Source: a virus
IMG/VR virus record: IMGVR_UViG_3300036814_000725
Location: 1 to 32,388 of that record
DNA: 32,388 nt
Strand: one strand, 5' to 3'
Within the stretch, counting starts at the first letter, position 1. Every line of letters starts with the position of its first letter. The position numbers and the translations under genes were made by a program. Below the pieces are notes generated by a model, which saw only the letters and a list, made by a program, of their open reading frames with translations, was not told where the DNA came from and did not search any database. This document shows, one piece after another, positions 1,052 through 32,388 of the stretch.

Positions 1052-2809
1052 ATGCCAGTATATCAAAACAAAGCACTACAAGATCAGATAATGCGCGTGG
1101 CCACTCAAGGCCAACAGCGCAGTATAAACTCCAAGGCAAGACAGGCAGCAGTAGCGAAAGCTATTGGCTCCACTGGTCAGGTTGCAGCACAGGCTTATTC
1201 GGCCAATGCGGCAGAGGTCATGAAGCAGGCTAAAGAGCTTGGTCTTAGCAGCCCAGAAGAGATAGCTGGCTTAAAGAAGGTCATGGAGATCTCAGAGAGA
1301 ACTGGGTTAACTGTAGAAGAGATTACTGGGTCGCCAAAGCTCATGGAAGATCTTATGAACGAAGCCAAGGGCAGAAGGGCTAGGCAGGATAGCTTAGACA
1401 AATCTATTAGTGGGCTAGAGGGAGACTTGGCGAAAAGCGAAGGACTGGGGCACATATTGTCTGCGTCTGAGAAAATGTACGGCGACCAAGCCGAGGCTGC
1501 CCTTAATAAGTTCAACAAAACAGAAGAGGTTGAAGAGTTCCCGCCGGGACTTCAGCTTCCGAAACTCTTAGCAGGAGAAGATAAGGATAAAAAAATATCT
1601 ACATATCGTGATACTGTTGGCACACGAGATGATTCCGCCAATGAAACCGCCCGCTTGAGGCAGCGTCTTGCCGGAGCCAAGACAGACCGCAAAGCAAACG
1701 TAATGTCTCCAGACAAGCTCGCAAAACTCAAGGCACTTCAGAGCATGGGGCTAACGAGGGACCAGCTTACTGCAGCTCGCAGATCTATTTCAGCAAAGCA
1801 GAAGCTCGACAAGCTTGCCTCAAGCAATCTTGTCGGACGTGACATGGTAGGAAGAATGGCAGCAGAAGGCTCTAGGACTGGCATGAAGGAGATTACGGCA
1901 CAGAAGGCAGCAGCAGCACAGCTTGCACTTACTGCCGAAAAGACGGCTCGCGAGGTCGACGTACATGACTACAAAAAAGGACAAAGAGGAGTGGATGCCA
2001 TAGGAAAGATGTCGGGATTTGCAAAGCTCATAGTATATGCTAATCCGAAAACCATGGGGGATAGAAACGTTCAGGACTTCTATACCCTTATAAAGGTTGG
2101 AGTGAAGGCTGGCATACCCGAGGATGAAGCAACTGAATATGCAGACACCATGTTAAAGAGCAGACAGGAAGCCAGCATTATAAACTTTGACAAGGCGCTG
2201 AGTGCAGAAGAGAATAGAAGCGCCATTCTAGGTCTAGCCAAGGAGCGACTTGTGCAAACCGCTGCGCAGTCCAATAAAAGACTAGAGCAGGACGCAACTC
2301 AGCATACAGAAAATCTCGACGCCAGGGCAAAAGAGGCACGCAGAAAGCCATCAAAGAATCCCTGGCCACATATCAGCCAAAAAGGAAAGAACGCAGTCAA
2401 GGCAGCGGAGGCTGAAGAAAAGAAGGAGGAGAATACCAAAAAGTCTAGGATTAAAACTCTGGAGAACACGGTTGTTTCCCTGTCTGGGGTATTAGCTGGC
2501 AGCATTCCCGGGAGCTCAAAATCCGCGAAACCGCTGGCGAAAGCACGGATCCTTTTAAGCAAGATACAGGGTGGTGATGAGCAACTTAAAGATAAAATAG
2601 TGAGGCAGACAGGACGCTCATGGCAACAGGTCGAAAAAGAACTAGAAGAATATCTCTTCCTTACCACCACGACAGGGACTGCTCCTGTATCCACGGTGCC
2701 GCCAGAGGTAAAACAGGAGGCGCTTAAAAAGGTAAGGAGAGCAACAGGTGACAACAGTGACCCAATGATTCAGGCACTAGAGGCAAAAGAAGCGGCAGGT
2801 AAAAAATAA
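1052..2809 (+). CDS. Presumed ejection / internal virion protein, 585 aa
   Basis: The product is strongly helical, rich in Ala, Lys, Glu and Gln, with many charged heptad-like stretches (for example around residues 245-300 and 420-460) and no signal peptide or membrane segment. The start has a good ribosome site (AGGAAACAACA before ATG). Its stop overlaps the start of the 1714-aa gene (TAATG), so the two are probably translationally coupled. Position after the tail genes, and between two other large helical proteins, matches the place of P22 gp7/gp20/gp16 and T7 gp14/gp15/gp16, which leave the capsid with the DNA. I see no sequence motif that proves this; the function is inferred from order, size and composition. 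Confidence 0.8.
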   Translation: MPVYQNKALQDQIMRVATQGQQRSINSKARQAAVAKAIGSTGQVAAQAYSANAAEVMKQAKELGLSSPEEIAGLKKVMEISERTGLTVEEITGSPKLMEDLMNEAKGRRARQDSLDKSISGLEGDLAKSEGLGHILSASEKMYGDQAEAALNKFNKTEEVEEFPPGLQLPKLLAGEDKDKKISTYRDTVGTRDDSANETARLRQRLAGAKTDRKANVMSPDKLAKLKALQSMGLTRDQLTAARRSISAKQKLDKLASSNLVGRDMVGRMAAEGSRTGMKEITAQKAAAAQLALTAEKTAREVDVHDYKKGQRGVDAIGKMSGFAKLIVYANPKTMGDRNVQDFYTLIKVGVKAGIPEDEATEYADTMLKSRQEASIINFDKALSAEENRSAILGLAKERLVQTAAQSNKRLEQDATQHTENLDARAKEARRKPSKNPWPHISQKGKNAVKAAEAEEKKEENTKKSRIKTLENTVVSLSGVLAGSIPGSSKSAKPLAKARILLSKIQGGDEQLKDKIVRQTGRSWQQVEKELEEYLFLTTTTGTAPVSTVPPEVKQEALKKVRRATGDNSDPMIQALEAKEAAGKK

Positions 2810-5800
2810 TGGCAAACATAGTAAACCTTTCCCAGTACAAACCCGCTACCACTACCAACGAAGAAGATGCTGCAGAAGCTAAAGCACTGGCCGACAGACC
2901 AGCCTTTGAGCAGACAGGTATTGAAGGAAGGAAGATCAAGAAAAGAGTAGAGGATGTGACGGGCGGCCTTTCCGATGGTGAGCTTGATAACCTTGTCGCG
3001 GAAGGTCTTGACTTCATTAACTTCACTCAGCTTTTGGACCACACGGTAACGACGGCACGAAAGGGTCCGCCCGGCTTTGGGACTGACCAGAGCATTACGT
3101 CTGCGGCCGGAAGTGGACAGCATGGTCAATCCCATGTGTACAGCGTTAAAGAAATGGACAACTATCGACGCAGGTTTAACGATGCGTATGGCCGAGTAGA
3201 GGGCGACGCCAAGTTTAGAGAGCTTGAAAACAGCAACCAGTCTTTTGTTAATAATCTATGGGACGATGGAAAGGAAACCATCACGGGTCTAATGTGGGGT
3301 CTGCCGATAGCAGTTAAGGACAGCGCCGTTGGTGCCATTCGCCAAGGCTGGAGATCTATGAATCCCAACCTAAGCGAGAAGGACCAAGTAACTGCGTCCA
3401 AGGCCATGCAGAACCACATCGCAGCCATCCCAGATATGTATTTAGCTGGACAACTGTCCGGCTTTAGGCAGTCATCGAAGTTAATGAAGGGAATAAAACA
3501 AGCACCCCTAGAGGTTCTGTTTACCTATCTCGGGATTCAGGGTTTGGTTGCAGTCGGACGAGGAGCCATGAAGGCCGGAAGGTTAAAGGGGTCAGTAGGA
3601 TCTCGGGTGGTTCCCACGGGCAGCAAGATAGATAGCGCCAAACAGGTTGCAGAAATAGCAGCAGGGGATGCGAAGGACATTGCAAGACAGGCCAATATAG
3701 ACTTCCAAGCAGCGACCAGCATGAACATCGTCAAGACAGCCGAGGACGCCCTTCGCAGCGTACACAAGAGCGCATCTGAAGGTACTGGTACTGGTCTGCC
3801 CGGCGTTAAAGATAAGGTTCTCGGGTGGGTTTCAGGACAGGCGGTAGAAAAGCTATTTGATTCAAGCTTTCTGTTAGATGCACAGTTCGCCGAACGCTTA
3901 AGAGATACGCCAGTAAACGGCAGAGCAAACTTCTGGAAACAGTTCAATACCATAGATGATATATCGGTTCTCTCCCCTGAGAAAGTAAGAATGCTGGAAG
4001 AGGTTCTTATACACGGGTCAGACCAAGGCTCAATAAATCAGGCATACAAAGCAGTCGCGCTTGTGAACCAAGTAAAGAAGGCCATTAAAAGAGTTAACGA
4101 GGCAGAGAAAACCACTATAGATTCCCTTATGAGGGAAACCAGAAAAGAACACGCGAAGGCCGTCAAGGAGCTTGAAGGTGCCATTTCAGAAATAGACCAG
4201 AACATTTCAGAGATAGACCGGAACATTGCGCTTAGTGGTCCAGAGAAAATGGTCAGCGGAACAAAGAGGGCGTTGGTTGATCAGGATGCAGAAGGAAAGA
4301 TAGCCGCTGCAGAAGATATACTGGCCGCGCCTCCAAGGGCGACGGCCATCTCAGGTCAGCCTCTTCCAGACAAACGAGTAGCAGATTACGCCGACCCAGT
4401 AGAAGTGGTCATGAGCAACATGGACACACCCAACGTGCAGGTGCTGATGACGGTTCTGGAGTCCAACCCAAGCCTCAAGAAGAGGATAATGGCAGACCTT
4501 GACCTAACCAGCCCTGACCAGCTTGTTGAGCTTTTAAAGTCAAACGAGGGTCTTCAGAGAAAACTGGCAAGAGCGGTGGGCGCAGCAGACCCAACAAGGT
4601 CGAAGCCTACAGCGGGTCCAGAGGCCACATATCAGCCACCACTGTCTCGAACATCTCGACTTGAAGAACTTAGCGCGATGCAATCATTTAGAAAGGGAGG
4701 AAGAACAAAGCTGGAAGAGACAGAGTGGACAAACCTAATGATGGACGACCTTTTTGCAGGGCTGGCGGCAGAAGATGCAGCAGCCGTCGCCCCGAGAGTC
4801 GTGTTGCCGACAACACCAAAGGCATCAAGGTCGGCAGGGTTAGCATCTGGAAAAAACATGGAGACAGGTATTCGCCTAGAGGAAGTTCTGGCATCCAACC
4901 CGGAAATGATTGAAACGGTTGGCCCCAGAAGCATGGCGCAGCCGCAGAAGTCTACAGAGGCAAACAAGCTAGTATCTTCTAAGCCCCTTTCTGCACTGCA
5001 ACAAGGAAGAGCTGCGGAGCGGGTTCATGTGGCGGAGGAGCGCGTTCATGTGGCAGAACTTCGAGGACAGATCGAAGGAGAACGTGCGGTAATGGCTGAC
5101 CTTAATAAAGAGTCAACCATGAACGTGAGAAACAGCATCAAGGAGCGCAACAACATACTCACGAGGTTAAAGAGGCCGACTAAAAAAGGAAAGAAAGCTG
5201 CAGAAGACGACGCCTTACTGGATACGCTTATCGAAGATACGGCAGCGTTAGACCTGCTTGAGGCTAAGGAGATGGGGAAGGTAGACAAGGCCCTGTCACA
5301 GGAGATGCTAAAAAACGCCAAGGCAATAAAGGTCGGAGGCTCTTCGTTGGCGCAGTGGTTTGCCGAGCATGGCAAGAACCCATACATGACTTTTTTATAT
5401 GACGGTGTTCCGATGGATGGCTTGGCATTTTTCTTTAAGGGAGCCGAGGATGCCCTTGCCGCAGGAAGGTTTGACCCAAAGACAAACAAGAAAGGCTTTG
5501 ACCCAGAAAAGATATCTGTTGAGGTTGTTGACCCTAAGTATAAAGGGGTCGCAGAAGCAGCCGTTCGCGTAAAGATGGCGCTGGGAGAGATGGCAGCTCT
5601 GCAGACCGGAATAAATGTCGGCACTGCTGCGAACCCAATCCCCTTTAATGCTGCCCATGTTCTGGCTGCAAACACGCCATCCTATGCGACGACAAGTAGA
5701 AGACAGGGCAAGCTCGGTGTTGAGAAGGCAGAGCGTCAGCTTGAGCGCGAGATGAGCTTCAATAGAGATCCAATGGCGTTGACGGATGACTTAATAGATG

Positions 5801-7953
5801 TGTCCGAAGGCGCACTCCGGCAGTCTACAATGATAGACCGTACACTTGGCCCGAAAGAAAGAAAGGTTCTCGCTCGTGTCGATGAATCCGTAATATCAAA
5901 AGATGAAAAAAGAGAAGCTGGCCGACTGATGATGGCCGAGGACTTTGCTATTGGACTTCAGGCTGGGATGATGAAGACCCACCGAGAGATGGCATACTAT
6001 AAAACTCTCAATGAGGTTTTCGATGAGGCTGCAACAGGGTTCGACCAGAGTGGTCCCGAAAGATTCATATACAAAGACAAGGCAGACCTACAAGCGAACG
6101 GCCCCAGGGGCATGCTCTCTAACTCTTTCGTTCCGGTTCCATCTGTGAAAAAGGGTACAGGAAAAGACGCAGCACTTATGTTTGGCCCTCTTACTGGAAC
6201 GTATATGAGAAAGCGGGAGTTTGAAGCTCTTAAGAAAATGTCCGGCCTAGACAAGATAGCGGATATAATGACCAAGAACATGGCAGGTTCTGGCGTTAAA
6301 ATGCTGTTAGGCACAAAGGACGTATACTCATCTGCGATAAACTACAGCCGAACCATGAGTACTGTGACAAACCCGATCTATTTTTATAATACAATATCTG
6401 GATACGCTCAGATGCTCGCTCTTGAGGGGGTTAACCCAGCATCAATGGTTACCAATGCTCAAAGAAACATGAAGCCGGGAAACCCATACCTACAAAAGTT
6501 CCTAGAATCGGGAGAGGCGGAGACAACGGCCATGATGTACGGGGTAATGAACGACGCTGGCATCAACCCACAGCTCATGGGATTTAGCGGGGTACCGGGA
6601 AAGATGAAGGAGACAGTGGTGACTGGCGCAAAGGAGGCCTGGATTGACTGGAAGCAGCTAGGCGATGTGTCCAAAAAGATAGCAGAAGAAAAAGCAAAGA
6701 GAACAAAAAGCGTGGATGGCGTGTTGGCCAAGTCGCTCAAGAAGCAAGGGGGCCGCCTGACCAAAGCACTTCTTACGCTCCCTGAGAATCTTAAATCTCT
6801 GTTTACGCTTAACGGATTCAACAGTGCATTCGCTGCCATGATTGATGTATCCGCTCGCGTTACCATGTTTGAGCATCTTGTTAAAAGAAAAGCAGACCAC
6901 TTGAAAATATCACCAGAAAAGGTTCTGGCAGACCCCAAGCTTGTTAGAGAGATAGCAAAGAGAACTAACGACGACATGATACACTATAACGACATGGGAA
7001 AACTTCATGAGTGGGGAAGGAAGTATCTACCATGGGATCCTTTCCATGCGTGGTATGTTAGGTCAACGTCTAGACTTCTTAGGTACGGAGGAGAGCATCC
7101 GATCTTGAGTCGCACTGCACTTAGCGCAGAAAAAGAACGCAGGGCTATCATGTCTGAGGAGTTGCGTGAGGCTCGAAGGAAGCTTCCTGTTAGAATAAGG
7201 GATTTTGCTTTCAAGCTTGGCCCAGATACAAATAAAGATCTCTGGTTGTCGGTAGTTTATAACTCTATATTCGAGCCTACCCAGATAGACCCGTACAAGC
7301 TTTTGACGTTCGGGTTTGCCATGGAGCCGAAAACGGAAAGAGCAGTGGTTGAAAGAGAGATGAGAGAGAGACAGGATTTTGAGCAGGATGTAGGAGAAAA
7401 AGGTAAGTATGGAAAGCTCAATATACTACAGAAGCTCGCTGCAGAATTTAAAGCATCAGGAACGCAGACAGACATGGGGCTTATGAAAATGTATAACAGC
7501 GTTTCAGGAAGGACTGACTTCTGGGACTTATCAAGGGATCCAGTGGCGAGCGACATGACGAGAATGTCTAACGCTGCCCGTGATTTTGGCTTGCCGACAC
7601 TGGTAAACTTCTACATGGGGAAAGAACTCATGAGCTTTTTTGATGGAGATATACAAGCACAGATGAGGGCTGAGCACGGGGAGATGAGGTCGCAAACACT
7701 AAATCTTAATCCTGCAGAGCTTGTGATCAGGTCGTTAGGCCCATCGTTGTTCCGAGAAAGCCCAGACAATGATCGAATTTCCCGAGCGGTCGCATCCAAG
7801 ATAACTCTGATCAATAGAGAGTTTGATGACAGGCTAGGAGATGCAGACGGTGACGCAGAAAAGCGGGACGCCATTGAAAGGCTTCGGTCTGATGTTATAG
7901 AGATGATGGAGAACATAGCAGACGACCTAAACGCAAAAGGGAAGTACCAGTAA
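2809..7953 (+). CDS. Giant presumed ejection protein, 1714 aa
   Basis: This gene takes up about 16% of the genome. The start overlaps the previous stop (TAATG) and its own stop overlaps the next start in the same way. The N-terminal 250 residues carry moderately hydrophobic segments; residues about 420-480 and 720-800 look like coiled coils and each holds an exact one-heptad duplication (ISEIDQN/ISEIDRN, ERVHVAE twice). The C-terminal third (residues about 1170-1500) has the best-formed globular sequence, including a segment reading PWDPFHAWYVRSTSRLLRY that recalls helical domains of large phage virion proteins. No lysozyme or transglycosylase motif like that of T7 gp16 was found. By size and position it resembles the largest internal virion protein of short-tailed phages; polymerase or other enzyme activity is not supported. 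Confidence 0.85.
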   Translation: MANIVNLSQYKPATTTNEEDAAEAKALADRPAFEQTGIEGRKIKKRVEDVTGGLSDGELDNLVAEGLDFINFTQLLDHTVTTARKGPPGFGTDQSITSAAGSGQHGQSHVYSVKEMDNYRRRFNDAYGRVEGDAKFRELENSNQSFVNNLWDDGKETITGLMWGLPIAVKDSAVGAIRQGWRSMNPNLSEKDQVTASKAMQNHIAAIPDMYLAGQLSGFRQSSKLMKGIKQAPLEVLFTYLGIQGLVAVGRGAMKAGRLKGSVGSRVVPTGSKIDSAKQVAEIAAGDAKDIARQANIDFQAATSMNIVKTAEDALRSVHKSASEGTGTGLPGVKDKVLGWVSGQAVEKLFDSSFLLDAQFAERLRDTPVNGRANFWKQFNTIDDISVLSPEKVRMLEEVLIHGSDQGSINQAYKAVALVNQVKKAIKRVNEAEKTTIDSLMRETRKEHAKAVKELEGAISEIDQNISEIDRNIALSGPEKMVSGTKRALVDQDAEGKIAAAEDILAAPPRATAISGQPLPDKRVADYADPVEVVMSNMDTPNVQVLMTVLESNPSLKKRIMADLDLTSPDQLVELLKSNEGLQRKLARAVGAADPTRSKPTAGPEATYQPPLSRTSRLEELSAMQSFRKGGRTKLEETEWTNLMMDDLFAGLAAEDAAAVAPRVVLPTTPKASRSAGLASGKNMETGIRLEEVLASNPEMIETVGPRSMAQPQKSTEANKLVSSKPLSALQQGRAAERVHVAEERVHVAELRGQIEGERAVMADLNKESTMNVRNSIKERNNILTRLKRPTKKGKKAAEDDALLDTLIEDTAALDLLEAKEMGKVDKALSQEMLKNAKAIKVGGSSLAQWFAEHGKNPYMTFLYDGVPMDGLAFFFKGAEDALAAGRFDPKTNKKGFDPEKISVEVVDPKYKGVAEAAVRVKMALGEMAALQTGINVGTAANPIPFNAAHVLAANTPSYATTSRRQGKLGVEKAERQLEREMSFNRDPMALTDDLIDVSEGALRQSTMIDRTLGPKERKVLARVDESVISKDEKREAGRLMMAEDFAIGLQAGMMKTHREMAYYKTLNEVFDEAATGFDQSGPERFIYKDKADLQANGPRGMLSNSFVPVPSVKKGTGKDAALMFGPLTGTYMRKREFEALKKMSGLDKIADIMTKNMAGSGVKMLLGTKDVYSSAINYSRTMSTVTNPIYFYNTISGYAQMLALEGVNPASMVTNAQRNMKPGNPYLQKFLESGEAETTAMMYGVMNDAGINPQLMGFSGVPGKMKETVVTGAKEAWIDWKQLGDVSKKIAEEKAKRTKSVDGVLAKSLKKQGGRLTKALLTLPENLKSLFTLNGFNSAFAAMIDVSARVTMFEHLVKRKADHLKISPEKVLADPKLVREIAKRTNDDMIHYNDMGKLHEWGRKYLPWDPFHAWYVRSTSRLLRYGGEHPILSRTALSAEKERRAIMSEELREARRKLPVRIRDFAFKLGPDTNKDLWLSVVYNSIFEPTQIDPYKLLTFGFAMEPKTERAVVEREMRERQDFEQDVGEKGKYGKLNILQKLAAEFKASGTQTDMGLMKMYNSVSGRTDFWDLSRDPVASDMTRMSNAARDFGLPTLVNFYMGKELMSFFDGDIQAQMRAEHGEMRSQTLNLNPAELVIRSLGPSLFRESPDNDRISRAVASKITLINREFDDRLGDADGDAEKRDAIERLRSDVIEMMENIADDLNAKGKYQ

Positions 7954-10028: not shown

Positions 10029-10254
10029 CGTTGGATGCGTTAAGTGACGAGCGCAGTTCCTTGGTTACCTTGTCTAAGGCAAACACTATCTTGCACATGA
10101 TGTCGTAATCCTCCAGCGCAGCAAACAAAGTATTGATGCTGACCATGACCTTGTTCGTTGGCGGCAAAGAGAACTCGTCAGGTGTTAAATGCTGCGCGGC
10201 ATTACGTTCATATCTCAATGCTATCTGTCGCATTTCTTCCATTGGTTTACTCAT
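10015..10254 (-). CDS. Small helical protein, unknown, 79 aa
   Basis: A near-perfect ribosome site (AAAAGGAGGTGACGC) precedes the ATG, and ATGA overlap with the upstream 145-aa gene indicates coupled translation. The sequence is mostly helical and mixed in charge (MSKPMEEMRQIALRYERN...), ending NASNDDQQ. No motif is recognised. It lies between the exonuclease and resolvase genes, so a small partner in recombination is conceivable but unproven. Confidence 0.7.
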   Translation of the reverse strand: MSKPMEEMRQIALRYERNAAQHLTPDEFSLPPTNKVMVSINTLFAALEDYDIMCKIVFALDKVTKELRSSLNASNDDQQ

Positions 10255-10688
10255 GCGTCACCTCCTTTTGGTACGTTTATTCTCATCGCTGGGTCGGTGA
10301 TGTCATCAAGAGACACCACCTCAAGCGAACGCTTAAACAGTTTCTTGTCTGCTATCATGACAGACTTTAACATGCCCTGCAAACAAATCCTCGCATAGTC
10401 TATAGAGTCGTGGACATCCTCGTCGTCAAAGACCGTAGTGTTGGCGACGTCGTTTAGACTGTCCATGAAATACTTAAGCCTGTTTCTGTGACACACATAA
10501 GAGAACTCGATAGCCATCATGACTGCGATGACTTGGTTAGACATGTCGAGAATGTCTGCCCCTGAATCCTCATCCAGTATCCCATCAATGGCCTCGTCAC
10601 ATACTGACATTATCTGCTTGAATAAATCAAAGACAGCTTCCTTGTCTGGACCTTCTGACTCGTCGTGGTTATCGTCTTTATTTTTCAC
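10251..10688 (-). CDS. Acidic helical protein, unknown, 145 aa
   Basis: The start is GTG inside the last codons of the exonuclease gene, with GGAGGAGC about 11 bases upstream. The protein is strongly acidic at its N-terminus (KNKDDNHDESEGPDKE) and then helical, with a moderately hydrophobic stretch near residues 50-65 that is not long enough for a confident membrane span. Acidic small proteins next to phage exonucleases can be regulators or DNA mimics, but nothing here shows which. No family is recognised. Confidence 0.68.
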   Translation of the reverse strand: MKNKDDNHDESEGPDKEAVFDLFKQIMSVCDEAIDGILDEDSGADILDMSNQVIAVMMAIEFSYVCHRNRLKYFMDSLNDVANTTVFDDEDVHDSIDYARICLQGMLKSVMIADKKLFKRSLEVVSLDDITDPAMRINVPKGGDA

Positions 10689-11501: not shown

Positions 11502-12429
11502 GGCAATATCCAGATGTGGACCATGTTACATTATCCGCACGATTGTCAGGTCCATCGCTCACCTCAAGTGTTAATAGAAAAGGGTCAGGTTCCTTGCCTG
11601 CTTTGATGCGTATCTTAACATGGTTCAGCCACTCTGCAGATGCCGTCTTAGGCTCATCGGCTAGGGTGATAAGACCATCCACTGCACCGTAGATAGCTCC
11701 ACTGCCACGCAAAGCAAATCCTGGGTTGTCTTTATCTTGCTTGGACATCTTGCGCAGGTGGTGAGTAATGAGAATGGATGACTGAGTTATGTCTCTTAGG
11801 TCTTTGACATTTTCAGCGAGCTGCCGCACTGCGTTGCTATCATTCTCATCTAGACCATGGGCGTTTCTGAAAGGGTCTATCACTATCAGTCCAAGGTTGG
11901 GTATGCTCTCCGCTATCCTGTTGGCAAGTGTTCTAACCTGAGATGCGTCACCTAGGTCTAGCTCTTTGCTGAAGCGAAAGTACAATGGTGCCTTCTTAAG
12001 AGCCTCTATTCCTACTCCCTTGCTCTTACCTATAGCTCGGACACGTCCGTAGATGTTACTCGCTGCGTCTTCTAGCATGATAAACAATACACTCCTCTGA
12101 CATTGTACCGTAAAATCACTGCCTGAGAAACAAGGTTCCCTTAGAGCCAAGGAGATTCCTATGTCTAATGCCATCCAAGACTTGCAGGTTTTCGGAGCGC
12201 CACCTAGAATGATGAAGCCATTGTCCGGCACAAGCCCGTCAACTAGCCACTGCATAGGGGGTGGTGGGTTTGCCATGAACGATGACGATGGCGTTATGCC
12301 TAGGCTTTTCAGGGTCTTGGCCCGTCGTTCTTCTTCTGGTTCTATCTGAACACAGTAGTCTAAATCACTGATGTCTTTATCTCTTTCAGTCCATCCTGAA
12401 CTAGGCTGTTCACCCACTGTCTCGAACAT
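11488..12429 (-). CDS. RecA-fold ATPase (AAA_25 / RepA-like), 313 aa
   Basis: The core begins with a typical helicase-loader type lead (PPMQWLVDGLVPDNGFIILGG). The Walker A motif is GGAPKTCKS at 76-84 with Lys83; Walker B is LIVIDP at 181-186 (Asp185), followed by THH at 222-224 and a GSGAI segment at 243-247. This pattern is that of the RepA/AAA_25 ATPases, related to DnaB-type helicases and common in phage replication modules. The position usually held by Gly before Lys-Ser is Cys. It may act as the replicative helicase or as a DNA-dependent ATPase with the recombination proteins. The ribosome site is excellent (AGAGGTGATGAG before ATG). The first 70 bp overlap the sigma-factor gene in another frame. 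Confidence 0.85.
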   Translation of the reverse strand: MFETVGEQPSSGWTERDKDISDLDYCVQIEPEEERRAKTLKSLGITPSSSFMANPPPPMQWLVDGLVPDNGFIILGGAPKTCKSWMALDIGISLALREPCFSGSDFTVQCQRSVLFIMLEDAASNIYGRVRAIGKSKGVGIEALKKAPLYFRFSKELDLGDASQVRTLANRIAESIPNLGLIVIDPFRNAHGLDENDSNAVRQLAENVKDLRDITQSSILITHHLRKMSKQDKDNPGFALRGSGAIYGAVDGLITLADEPKTASAEWLNHVKIRIKAGKEPDPFLLTLEVSDGPDNRADNVTWSTSGYCHDDK

Positions 12430-12830
12430 CTCATCACCTCTGCTATCTGTGTTTCGGTCATGTTGCGACCGTACTTCATTCTAAAAACTATCCATAGCTT
12501 TACTGGTAGAACCCTTCGGATGTCCAGAAGAAGGTCTACCACTGGTTGGTAGGACTCGCATCCGGCCATGAAGATATCATCTGATAATGAAACATTCTGC
12601 CATCTAGACCTATGAAGACGATGCCTGCCAACCTCGCGTCTAATCCAGAAGATAGCGTAGGTAGAGAATGCGAAGCCTAGCTCAGGCTTAAACCTGAGTG
12701 CGGCCTCGCATAACCCTACCATTCCGCACTGCCTGGTATCTGCGTCCGATGGTCGCGAACGCAGATACCAATCAACTATCCACTGGTGATCGACAACCAG
12801 TTTAGAATGGCATTGATTCACTGCCACCAC
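12360..12830 (-). CDS. Compact sigma70-family RNA polymerase sigma factor, about 156 aa
   Basis: Region 2 is clear at residues about 10-80: GMVGLCEAALRFKPE followed by FAFSTYAIFWIRREVGRHRL, which parallels the GxIGLxxAxxxFdxxxGxxFSTYAxWWIRxxI pattern that binds the -10 element and core polymerase. A region 4 helix-turn-helix is at about 104-150 (MTETQIAEVMRCSRQWVNSLVQDGLKEI). Regions 1.1 and 3 are missing, as in small alternative sigma factors. It would redirect host RNA polymerase, probably to phage late genes; no cognate promoter is proven. Start codons are GTG (12830, 12827 or 12821) inside the SSB gene end and the true one is uncertain. The 3' end overlaps the ATPase gene by 70 bp. Confidence 0.85.
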   Translation of the reverse strand: MVAVNQCHSKLVVDHQWIVDWYLRSRPSDADTRQCGMVGLCEAALRFKPELGFAFSTYAIFWIRREVGRHRLHRSRWQNVSLSDDIFMAGCESYQPVVDLLLDIRRVLPVKLWIVFRMKYGRNMTETQIAEVMRCSRQWVNSLVQDGLKEIKTSVI

Positions 12831-13182
12831 CGAAGTTTTTGACAGGAGCTTTGCCCTCGTCTTCCCATGGACAGTCCACTACCTCGTTCGCCATGACGGT
12901 CAGCTGCTCGACTTCTTGAGCAGGAGCATCTGGTGTATCAGCATTGGTTTTCTTCCATCGCTCTAGGCGTAGGCTGCCGATGATAGCCACTCGGTTCTTG
13001 GCTTCCATCTTGGCTGTGACCTTTGTATTCTTGAATGCCTTGACTCGGATGAAGAACGGTGCTTCATCCTTGCCATTGTAGCATGCGACAGAGAACATGG
13101 TTAGCCCGCCTGCAGTAGTTTTGATTCCCGTAGATGTGATGTTACCTACGTATACGTTATTTCTAGGATCGTTGTTCGCCAT
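12802..13182 (-). CDS. ssb: Single-stranded DNA-binding protein, 126 aa
   Basis: The sequence has OB-fold SSB features: NNVYVGNITSTGIKT at the start, then FSVACYNGKDEAPFFIRVKAF, then VAIIGSLRLERW, a pattern of first, middle and last strands as in bacterial and phage SSBs. The end is acidic and Gly-rich and finishes ESMPF, a variant of the acidic -PF tip that recruits partner proteins. I chose the ATG at 13182, preceded by AAGGAAG; the longer frame to 13236 lacks a site. It would coat single strands during replication and recombination beside the Rad52-like protein, whose gene it overlaps by 20 bp. Confidence 0.85.
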   Translation of the reverse strand: MANNDPRNNVYVGNITSTGIKTTAGGLTMFSVACYNGKDEAPFFIRVKAFKNTKVTAKMEAKNRVAIIGSLRLERWKKTNADTPDAPAQEVEQLTVMANEVVDCPWEDEGKAPVKNFGGGSESMPF

Positions 13183-13855
13183 TGTTGACTTCCTTTTTAG
13201 TGTTGAGCTTCTGCTGAACTGTAACACACAGAACACGCATAGACTTCTTTTCTTCTTCTGGTAATCTGGCTAGGTCATTGACATAGCTATTCATTACTTT
13301 GCTGTATCCGGCCTTGCTCGTAACACTTCCAAGGTCTAACTTGAACGCATCCACGATGCCCGAGATATCATCAGATGTCATGTGTAGGTCGGCCCACTTA
13401 TCGCTGCCGCCACTATGCACAGGGTTGTCACCATCGTACAGGCTTGCACCGAACTGATTGCCTAGCCAATGACAAGCACGTTTGATTGCCTGAGTAGGAG
13501 CACCACAGTAAGCAGTGTTCAGAACGTCTGACAGGTTGCTGCCTTGCGAGCTGCAGGTTCCTACGTCTTCCTTTATGGTCTGCGTCCACTCGCCACCAGA
13601 GGCTGCGTGACGCACTGTAACGCGCACACCACAGGTTGCTATGATGTGCCACTTCTTACGACCATTCTTTTCTTCCTGCTCCTTATGAACAAGAGCAGGT
13701 TCCTGAATGATCTGGATGTCCCAGCCATCATGCCCGAACAGGCGGTTCATATTATAGATTAAGAACGGATGAGATACGTAAGAGTATCCACCTTTCTTTT
13801 CGATATGCTCTGCAGGATAGCCTTCATTCAATGCTTTGTAGACTGGATTACCCAT
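13163..13855 (-). CDS. Rad52/Rad22-family single-strand annealing protein, 230 aa
   Basis: The N-terminal region (YSYVSHPFLIYNMNRLFGHDGWD) and the motif GAPTQAIKRACHWLGNQFG-ASLYD at about 118-141 match the Rad52_Rad22 fold, where the 'AIKRAxRxxGxxFGxxLYD' helix lies at the DNA-binding core. It would anneal complementary single strands made by the YqaJ-type exonuclease, forming a two-part recombination system and helping to build concatemers. The ATG at 13855 follows AAAGAGGTGAGAGCA; a GTG three codons earlier is possible but worse placed. The last 60 residues are charged and helical. It overlaps the HTH gene upstream by 8 bp and SSB downstream by 20 bp. Confidence 0.85.
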   Translation of the reverse strand: MGNPVYKALNEGYPAEHIEKKGGYSYVSHPFLIYNMNRLFGHDGWDIQIIQEPALVHKEQEEKNGRKKWHIIATCGVRVTVRHAASGGEWTQTIKEDVGTCSSQGSNLSDVLNTAYCGAPTQAIKRACHWLGNQFGASLYDGDNPVHSGGSDKWADLHMTSDDISGIVDAFKLDLGSVTSKAGYSKVMNSYVNDLARLPEEEKKSMRVLCVTVQQKLNTKKEVNNGEQRS

Positions 13856-14045
13856 TGCTCTCACCTCTTTCTATCTGTTGATCATGAAGCCATCGCTGAA
13901 CCTCACTCATGTTATACTTCCAGTGCCTACCTAACTTGGTAGGTGCAGGTCCATCACCTGCTGTTCGCCATCGCTGCAGTGTATCAACATGACACCCGAG
14001 CATCTGACTTAACTCCTTAGTACTTATATATTTTATCTCTTGCAT
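13848..14045 (-). CDS. Excisionase/MerR-like helix-turn-helix DNA-binding protein, 65 aa
   Basis: Residues 7-55 follow the HTH_17/excisionase pattern: ISTKELSQMLGCHVDTLQRW, then GDGPAPTKLGRHWKY, then EVQRWL, i.e. a winged helix with the GP..KLGR.W.Y wing. At 65 residues it is a bare DNA-binding domain. No integrase is visible in the genome, so a transcriptional role is more likely than excision. A good ribosome site (TAGGAGATATAAG) precedes the ATG. The 160 bp upstream hold a large inverted repeat and several CCAAGG motifs, which could be its own operator. It leads the recombination gene set. Confidence 0.82.
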   Translation of the reverse strand: MQEIKYISTKELSQMLGCHVDTLQRWRTAGDGPAPTKLGRHWKYNMSEVQRWLHDQQIERGESNG

Positions 14046-14063: not shown

Positions 14064-14100
14064 AAGTAGACATGGCCATGCTTCGCACCATGGTCTACTT
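14064..14100. promoter_or_regulatory. Inverted repeat upstream of the HTH gene (candidate operator)
   Basis: The arms AAGTAGACATGG (14064-14075) and CCATGGTCTACTT (14088-14100) are inverted copies, differing by one inserted base, around a 12-base centre. The repeat starts 19 bp upstream of the HTH start codon. It could be a binding site for that protein or an RNA hairpin in the leader. CCAAGG-like motifs follow at 14103, 14127 and 14155. Confidence 0.5.
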
Positions 14101-14166
14101 CCCCTTGGTAGTTATTCACCTCTCTACCTTGGGGATTTTTTTTGTTTGCATTTCCCTTGGGTATGC

Positions 14167-14208
14167 TTTAATCTCTATCTCTCTTTTAAGAGAGAGAGAG
14201 AGATTAAA
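14167..14208 (-). terminator. AG-rich hairpin after the first GroES-like gene
   Basis: TTTAATCTCT...CTCTCTT pairs with AAGAGAG...AGATTAAA over 21 positions with two mismatches and almost no loop. It begins four bases after the stop at 14212 on the minus strand. There is no U-run after the stem in that direction, so termination is uncertain; mRNA protection or processing is an alternative. Confidence 0.45.
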
Positions 14209-14211
14209 CAG

Positions 14212-14556
14212 CTATCCTAATCGAAGGATGGCATCCTCTTCTTGGCATGCCACAAACTGGTGGTCTGCAGTTAATCCATCAAGAGCATTCTTGATCACCA
14301 CTACCCACTGCCCGACATCTAGACCTCTTACCTCTGGACCTATCTTAAGAACTTCATGGTACAAGGTGTGCTTGTAGTCCACGTCTGCTGGCAAGGTTAG
14401 GTTGCTGAAGTCAGACTGGTGCATGGCTTCGAGTACTACCCACTTACCTGCTGGCTCTATCTTCTCCACGATTAAGTCTCTGGTGAAACCTTCTCGCAGC
14501 ACCGCTGTCTTCTCTGTTCTGTTCATGGGAGCATTGAACGCTTCTTCTTTTACCAT
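14212..14556 (-). CDS. GroES-like co-chaperonin, 114 aa
   Basis: After a 35-residue lead the sequence follows the Cpn10 fold in order: GKWVVLEAM (38-45, first strand, like DRVIVKR), SDFSNLTLP (48-56, at the place of the mobile loop with its hydrophobic tripeptide), YHEVLKIGPEV (66-76, like GEVLAVG), LDVGQWVVV (79-87, like VGDIVIF) and a C-terminal FVACQEEDAILRLG (101-114, like LIMSESDILAI). Phage co-chaperonins such as T4 gp31 replace host GroES for folding the coat protein. Here it would cap host GroEL. The ribosome site is AAAGGT. A second GroES-like gene lies 12 bp upstream. Assignment rests on pattern only; sequence identity is low. Confidence 0.65.
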   Translation of the reverse strand: MVKEEAFNAPMNRTEKTAVLREGFTRDLIVEKIEPAGKWVVLEAMHQSDFSNLTLPADVDYKHTLYHEVLKIGPEVRGLDVGQWVVVIKNALDGLTADHQFVACQEEDAILRLG

Positions 14557-14568
14557 CTTGTCTACCTT

Positions 14569-14799
14569 TCACTCGCGACCTATGGCCACGATGTCTTCTT
14601 GTTTGATGACGCCTCGGCTGTTGCCTATCATCACCACGTCTTGTTTATGTGCGAGCACGATGAAGTGTTCATCGTACCCACGATCTAAGTCTAGACTGCC
14701 CGTGTCTACGAGCTGACCGCAGACCACCTGCTGGTCGCTGTCTTTCAGGTACCCCTGCACCTTAACGATCACGCGCATGTGACCTGCTTCAAACTGCAT
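14569..14799 (-). CDS. Second, shorter GroES-like protein, 76 aa
   Basis: The order of strands again recalls Cpn10: MRVIVKV (8-14), VVCGQLVDTG (25-34), HFIVLAHKQDVVMIG (45-59) and EDIVAIGRE at the end, matching the 'ILAI' C-terminus of GroES. The mobile-loop segment is very short, so this one may not bind GroEL alone. It could form mixed rings with its 114-aa neighbour or be a divergent beta-barrel protein with another function. ATG at 14799 overlaps the previous gene by 11 bp; the ATG at 14778, preceded by GCAGGT, is an alternative start. Confidence 0.5.
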   Translation of the reverse strand: MQFEAGHMRVIVKVQGYLKDSDQQVVCGQLVDTGSLDLDRGYDEHFIVLAHKQDVVMIGNSRGVIKQEDIVAIGRE

Positions 14800-18371: not shown

Positions 18372-18854
18372 ATGCCAGACAATGTAAAGATGCTTAGTCA
18401 CTACCGCAGAGACTTGCCCAACTGCATACGCAACGGAGTCGCTACCGCACACGAGATGAAAACCCACCTGTGTTGCTCTGCTAGGCTGAAAAATAAGACT
18501 CTTTGCTCTGGTGGTCGCATAGCTGGCAGCATGTTCTGCTACTTTCATGACCCAGAACTGGAAGAGGATAGAGCAGATAATCGTAAGAGAGGAAGAGAAA
18601 ACTTACGTTCTGTCATTTCTCGTCAGGCTGGAGTACCAGACATAAAGTCCGTAGATGATGTGAGGAAGTTCTGCATAGAGACTGCACACCAGATAAGAAT
18701 CGGCGAACTAGATTCTCGCGAAGGTGCAGTCATCGCTCAGTTCATCAATCAGATACTCAAGACACTTCCAGAAGAGGTTAGTACTGAAGCAACTAAGGCC
18801 GACAAGTTGAGAGAAATCTTAATGGAAGAAAGCTCAGAAGAAGATGCTTCTTAA
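18372..18854 (+). CDS. Zinc-finger protein in the small-terminase position, 160 aa
   Basis: It is the first gene of the late block and lies directly before the large terminase, where a small terminase subunit is expected. Residues 34-59 form a cysteine/histidine finger: Cys34/35, Cys45, Cys56 and His59, with the typical phage ending MFCYFHDPE. The rest is helical and charged (residues about 65-155), suited to oligomerisation, and ends in acidic residues. DNA recognition by the finger would fit packaging-site binding. The ribosome site at 18372 is weak; the ATG at 18456 (residue 29), just before the finger, is an alternative. Small terminase is inferred from place, not from similarity. Confidence 0.65.
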   Translation: MPDNVKMLSHYRRDLPNCIRNGVATAHEMKTHLCCSARLKNKTLCSGGRIAGSMFCYFHDPELEEDRADNRKRGRENLRSVISRQAGVPDIKSVDDVRKFCIETAHQIRIGELDSREGAVIAQFINQILKTLPEEVSTEATKADKLREILMEESSEEDAS

Positions 18855-32032: not shown

Positions 32033-32388
32033 ATGGCCAGAAACTACAACTTTATTCCGCCCTTACCCGGCGGCTCTACCAACACTAACGATGAGCCTGA
32101 TGATGACGAGCTAGACGAAGACGGTATCAATACAGCCGCTGCCAATCAGGCGGCAGATACTATTATAGGCGACGAAGACGCAGCCGATTACGACTATGAA
32201 GACGTTCCTACGGTTCTTCCGGGCGAGGGTGGCCCACCATCCGACGATCAGATAGTTCAAGAGGTTCCAGTTAACACGGGGCCAGACAGTGCTGGAAGCG
32301 ATGAGGATGAGCTTTATGATCCATCGACTGCAAACCTTAAACAGGGCGGAAACATAGAAGCTGACCTCATGTCAAATACGGAAGACGA
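32033..32388 (+). CDS. Acidic virion protein, 5' part (gene crosses contig ends)
   Basis: ATG at 32033 follows AGGAGATCCTTC. The first 118 codons are in this end; the gene continues at base 1 and ends at 1037, giving 421 residues in all. The part here is acidic and disordered in character (NDEPDDDELDEDGINTAAAN, GDEDAADYDYEDVPTV). It precedes the 585-aa and 1714-aa proteins and is probably the first of three ejection proteins. Confidence 0.85.
   Translation, partial: MARNYNFIPPLPGGSTNTNDEPDDDELDEDGINTAAANQAADTIIGDEDAADYDYEDVPTVLPGEGGPPSDDQIVQEVPVNTGPDSAGSDEDELYDPSTANLKQGGNIEADLMSNTED
32262..32388. repeat. Direct terminal repeat, right copy (circular contig overlap)
   Basis: These 127 bases are identical to positions 1-127. 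Removing one copy gives a closed circle of about 32,261 bp in which the structural gene starting at 32033 is intact. Confidence 0.95.

Follow-up and report, generated by a model that had tools for sequence, protein, structure and literature searches.

Co-chaperonins of the Cpn10/GroES family are well known from phages, podoviruses included. In T4, the capsid protein is folded with gp31, which has 14% identity to GroES and is without roof loops (PMC6318259). Among podoviruses, the HTVC023P-type pelagiphages have GroES as a core gene (PMC9599517), and a report on the GroES of siphovirus B8b mentions earlier myo- and podovirus cases (PMC4294664). Finding a diverged co-chaperonin in so small a phage is therefore less novel than an initial annotation had supposed; what is new at the locus described here is a lineage that had gone undetected, is too diverged for current models, lies beside recombination genes and carries an altered loop.

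The window, that is the whole stretch of DNA analysed (32,388 bases), is a virus record with a 127-bp direct repeat at its ends and therefore looks complete; together with the gene for a P22-type portal protein, the repeat bears out its earlier description as a 32-kb phage. The plus strand carries the genes for the portal, for a terminase and for a protein of 1,714 aa; the minus strand carries an early cluster encoding a RecE-like exonuclease, an AAA_25 helicase, a sigma-like protein, an SSB (a weak match), a Rad52-like annealer and an HTH protein. At 14212-14799 there are exactly two minus-strand open reading frames, in agreement with the two adjacent genes originally proposed and designated A and B below. 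A close relative of the window, IMGVR_UViG_3300002231_000791 (G001), is collinear with it and has a portal and terminase of 94% and 90% identity, respectively. The genes needed for the discussion are as follows.

14212..14556, minus strand: gene A, 114 aa, predicted divergent Cpn10/GroES-family protein (family homologs and profile match)
14569..14799, minus strand: gene B, 76 aa, lineage-specific early protein (homolog only in G001)
13848..14045, minus strand: HTH protein of the excisionase/regulator type, downstream of A (HTH_17, E 3e-13; phrog_66)
13163..13864, minus strand: Rad52-like annealing protein (Rad52_Rad22, E 7.8e-15; homologs; syntenic with A in 8/8 phages)
12360-12830, minus strand: sigma-like protein, 156 aa, between the SSB and helicase genes (Sigma70_r2, E 1.7e-7; phrog_351, E 2.8e-15)
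2809-7953, plus strand: 1,714-aa protein without a family match (32% identity to its G001 counterpart, versus 94% for the portal)

The 1,714-aa protein is probably a fast-evolving virion protein that is ejected. The 156-aa sigma-like protein of the 32-kb phage is conserved in G001. One gene crosses the ends of the record, in that window positions 32033-32388 and 1-1037 both match a single 467-aa protein of G001, which fits a circular assembly.

Genes A and B are separated by 12 nt, and each start is preceded by a purine-rich stretch that is a plausible ribosome-binding site. Both have counterparts in G001, at an identity of 47% for A (E 1.5e-30) and 33% for B (E 1.2e-8). Their order is unchanged there, and a 98-aa open reading frame that overlaps A lies between them; conservation of the two proteins and of their order in a related phage indicates that A and B are true genes rather than chance reading frames. 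Between the window and G001, the two proteins have diverged more rapidly than most of the genome. Comparison of the A copies of relatives G047 and G048 gave a dN of 0.074 and a dS of 0.89 (dN/dS about 0.08), indicating that A is under purifying selection.

Scans of viral and bacterial contigs, in which the A, B, helicase, Rad52 and RecE proteins served as queries, yielded G001 as the single close relative, together with two remote RecE matches in Bacillota. Only a scan with the portal protein opened up the phage group, adding eleven further relatives; the group consists of small podoviruses of about 32-34 kb, and end repeats of 99-127 bp are present in four of the eight that carry A. Gene A was found in all of the related records that cover the region (G001, G046, G047, G048, G051, G052 and G053), invariably immediately 5′ of the early HTH/Rad52/SSB/helicase cluster. 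The relatives that lack it (G044, G045, G049, G050 and G054) are fragments in which a Rad52 or helicase gene was likewise not found, so that the absence of A from them is uninformative. A is thus a core gene of the group, present, with the window, in 8/8 phages covering the region. The slot before it appears to exchange genes, since a gene for a similar small Cys-rich protein precedes A in G001 (L002:1724-2020) and G053 (-247 to +11 from the A start) and is missing from the window. The Cys-rich gene overlaps the start of A, and its product contains ECADCG...DLCSDCY in G001 and VCPKCK...SHCHDCY in G053.

Hairpins are found close to A, and one of them recurs in the group.

14165..14212, minus strand: hairpin directly after the A stop, UUUAAUCUCUCU...AGAGAUUAAA (RNA fold -22.8 kcal/mol, z -3.8)
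Window 14165-14212 (minus strand), G001 2095-2135, G047 18497-18539, G048 10243-10268, G052 7746-7770: sites of the palindrome CTCTCTCT...AGAGAGAG
14088-14145, plus strand: terminator-like hairpin CCCCTTGGTAG...CTACCTTGGGGATTTTTTTT, recognized on visual reading and absent from the scan output, inside the minus-strand gene cluster

The hairpin after the A stop is probably a transcript end or a processing element. The palindrome occurs once per early region in five phages: in the window and G001 it directly follows A on the 3′ side, and in G047, G048 and G052 it lies upstream of A; a terminator, a processing site and an operator are candidates for its role.

Family A was compared with Cpn10 by sequence and profile searches. 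Searches with the window copy of A alone gave no usable match in Pfam, PHROGs, the PDB or named phages, and the Cpn10 model found no match in a search of the window genome. Two weak matches of A, one to FtsK-like genes in Streptomyces phages (E 0.2) and the other to a cytotoxin model from a sea anemone (E 0.09), were judged to be due to chance, as they are partial and absent in other A members. When the whole family was considered, the Pfam entry with the best E-value was Cpn10 (E 0.0087, in 1/8 members), the PHROG matched by most members was phrog_3188, co-chaperonin GroES (3/8, best E 0.029), and the best PDB sequence was Chlamydomonas Cpn11, aligned along almost its entire chain (E 0.0069); all three matches are weak. 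The G052 copy matched Cpn10 with an E of 3.9e-4 in a one-genome search, below the curated cut-off; the curated cut-off of PF00166, which is a detection threshold and not a biological feature, was passed by none of the eight members, the best genome-search score being 15.6 bits against the 21.1 needed.

An alignment of the eight A proteins (A6; 19-46% identity to the window copy) was then aligned in hhalign to a Cpn10 profile built from sequences of bacteria, phages and T4, giving 81 collinear columns with a score of 35.8 and a probability of 87%. Column-shuffled copies of A6 (n = 600) scored 10.7 +/- 2.2 with a maximum of 22.8, and the reversed alignment scored 14.7. Since shuffles preserve composition and not local order, real phage families are a fairer control, and among 138 families of these phages A ranked first against Cpn10, the next scoring 19.1 over 15 columns. 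The GroES-like superfamily has other branches, and A could instead derive from one of these, such as the N-terminal domain of the MDR dehydrogenases (ADH_N). A6 scored 28.2 (48%) against ADH_N, the GHE of these enzymes resembles an invariant His-Glu of family A and stands at a similar place, and A alone weakly matches threonine dehydrogenase (E 1.1). The Cpn10 score is higher, however, and that alignment is collinear to the last strand, whereas the ADH_N alignment requires an insertion after His-Glu; A has no dehydrogenase domain, and the Pfam matches of the family include Cpn10 and not ADH_N. An origin outside Cpn10 is consequently regarded as improbable. A score above those of the shuffles, the phage families and ADH_N assigns family A, at the level of sequence profiles, to the GroES-like superfamily, closest to Cpn10. 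Structure predictions of A and B used two-sequence alignments. The resulting A model was poor (pLDDT 40) and its best Foldseek match insignificant (E 0.69); the top three of 350,542 chains were the Cpn10s of Thermus, M. tuberculosis and T4.

The initial annotation had also regarded B as GroES-like, and had viewed A and B as a diverged tandem pair suggestive of mixed rings or a split of functions. Chloroplast co-chaperonins would be a parallel for such an arrangement. The two genes are adjacent and co-directional, B ends in EDIVAIG, and Cpn11, the best PDB match of A, is a subunit of obligate chloroplast mixed rings (PMC4242682). Against this, homologs of B were detected in the window and G001 only and are missing in 6/8 phages, and the alignment of B with Cpn10 extends over 7-9 columns, essentially the EDIVA end, with 26% (local) or 62% (global) of shuffled copies scoring equally well. 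With n = 2 the sensitivity of that comparison is limited, but in the global test A, represented by just as small a number of sequences, outscored every one of 300 shuffles. Moreover, the alignment of B with family A is confined to some nine terminal residues, no Cpn10 was present among the 50 Foldseek matches listed for a poor B model, and searches with B alone gave no usable match among families, PDB sequences or phages. A match of B to Ika8 was discarded because no stretch passed alone. A second GroES-like gene was not detected in any of these phages, the relatives without B included. The Cpn10 strand order ascribed to both proteins is thus retained for A, where it is borne out by whole-domain profile comparison, and not for B, whose alignment is no better than that of shuffled B; likewise, the DIVAIG-type C-terminus that had been taken as a GroES sign in B comprises few residues, which shuffles match as well. 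With A in 8/8 phages, B in 2/8 and no Cpn10 signal in B, there is no support for mixed rings or a division of functions, and a tandem GroES pair is considered highly improbable. On the simplest reading, B would be a fast-evolving early gene of its own, unrelated to A and sharing its transcript.

In the joint alignment of family A with Cpn10, the first strand of A, KWVVLEAM, lies under GroES DRVIVKR, HQSDFSNLTLPAD under the GroES mobile loop, HEVLKIG under GEVLAVG, GQWVVVI under GDIVIF, and QFVACQEEDAIL under GroES EVLIMSESDILA; A has an extra N-terminal stretch relative to GroES. Three segments of A are of particular relevance to its possible function.

14371..14421, minus strand: H46-K62 of A (HQSDFSNLTLPADVDYK), aligned with the GroES mobile loop in the joint alignment; the hydrophobic residues L53 and L55 are retained
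14353..14358, minus strand: invariant His67-Glu68 of family A (8/8 members), where Cpn10 mostly has Gly-Glu/Lys
14311..14337, minus strand: short turn P74-G82 at the position of the GroES roof hairpin (alignments)

The mobile-loop-like SDFSNLTLP recognized in A at the outset does align with the GroES mobile loop, but it is about two residues shorter and is without the Gly-Gly. The latter is missing in 8/8 members and the loop sequence differs between phages, yet hydrophobic residues persist at the loop site in every member. A of the window and of most relatives has no roof hairpin, a segment of similar length being present in G047 and G048; because gp31 is also without a roof, this loss is not decisive against Cpn10. 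The residues invariant in family A are His67, Glu68, Gly73, Gly82, Asn90 and Asp108, of which His67, Glu68 and Asn90 are atypical of Cpn10.

We propose, with a probability of about 0.62, that A is a Cpn10/GroES-family protein which has diverged strongly and serves the phage as a co-chaperonin. By homology, A would form a ring that caps GroEL, and the GroEL contact would be made through its altered loop. As no GroEL was detected among the larger proteins scanned in these phages, the proposed partner is the GroEL of the host. A may replace or compete with host GroES, phage proteins folding under a lid without roof hairpins as with gp31, and the major capsid protein would be the obvious candidate for a client. 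The full-length profile match, the core-gene status, the hydrophobic residues of the loop and the roof-like segment in two relatives argue for this proposal. Scores below the curated cut-off in every member, the pLDDT of 40, the loss of Gly-Gly, the variability of the loop and a His-Glu that is not a Cpn10 feature argue against it, as does the position of A beside recombination genes and not head genes as in Shewanella phage 1/44; T4 gene 31, however, likewise lies away from the head genes.

In the main alternative, A would have kept a GroES fold and Cpn10 ancestry but would no longer cap a chaperonin, having been recruited to some other early function, for example as an accessory factor of the Rad52/SSB recombination genes. 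The invariant His-Glu would then be a new functional site serving recombination or replication beside the Rad52-like annealer and SSB. The constant place of A just 5′ of the HTH/Rad52/SSB genes in 8/8 phages, the loss of Gly-Gly in a variable loop, and the invariance of H67, E68 and N90 despite their being atypical of Cpn10 are all consistent with such repurposing. However, an early location is nothing exceptional among phage co-chaperonins, gene 31 of T4 being found among early genes such as cd and 30, and both the length and the hydrophobic residues at the loop position are preserved; repurposing is considered rather unlikely. The co-chaperonin reading is preferred for A. If A works on GroEL, the family represents a natural test of the extent to which a working lid can dispense with the loop and roof of GroES, and if it does not, it represents a repurposed GroES. 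This unrecognised co-chaperonin-like lineage, whose gene belongs to the core of the 32-34 kb phage group, also shows that current family models miss such genes.

Comparison with the described systems places family A near several of them and apart from each. By their published description, the HTVC023P-type pelagiphages resemble the present group, where the role is a putative one, in having a co-chaperonin as a podovirus core gene. Shewanella phage 1/44, a marine phage of <50 kb, likewise combines a co-chaperonin gene with a small genome, but its protein is a clear Cpn10 (E 5.4e-12) encoded among head-tail genes, whereas A is far more diverged and is encoded with recombination genes. Chlamydomonas Cpn11 (7ekq chain P) is the full-length best PDB match of A and shares with it a short roof region; it differs in having AGGILLP in its loop, and the chloroplast subunits act in mixed rings (PMC4242682). 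T4 gp31 is, like A, a Cpn10 relative of very low identity that is without the roof hairpin and is encoded in an early region. Its mobile loop is longer and contains SGLII, and it scores above the cut-off of the Pfam model for Cpn10 (E 3e-7), whereas family A, with no curated match, has a shorter loop without Gly-Gly and an invariant His-Glu.
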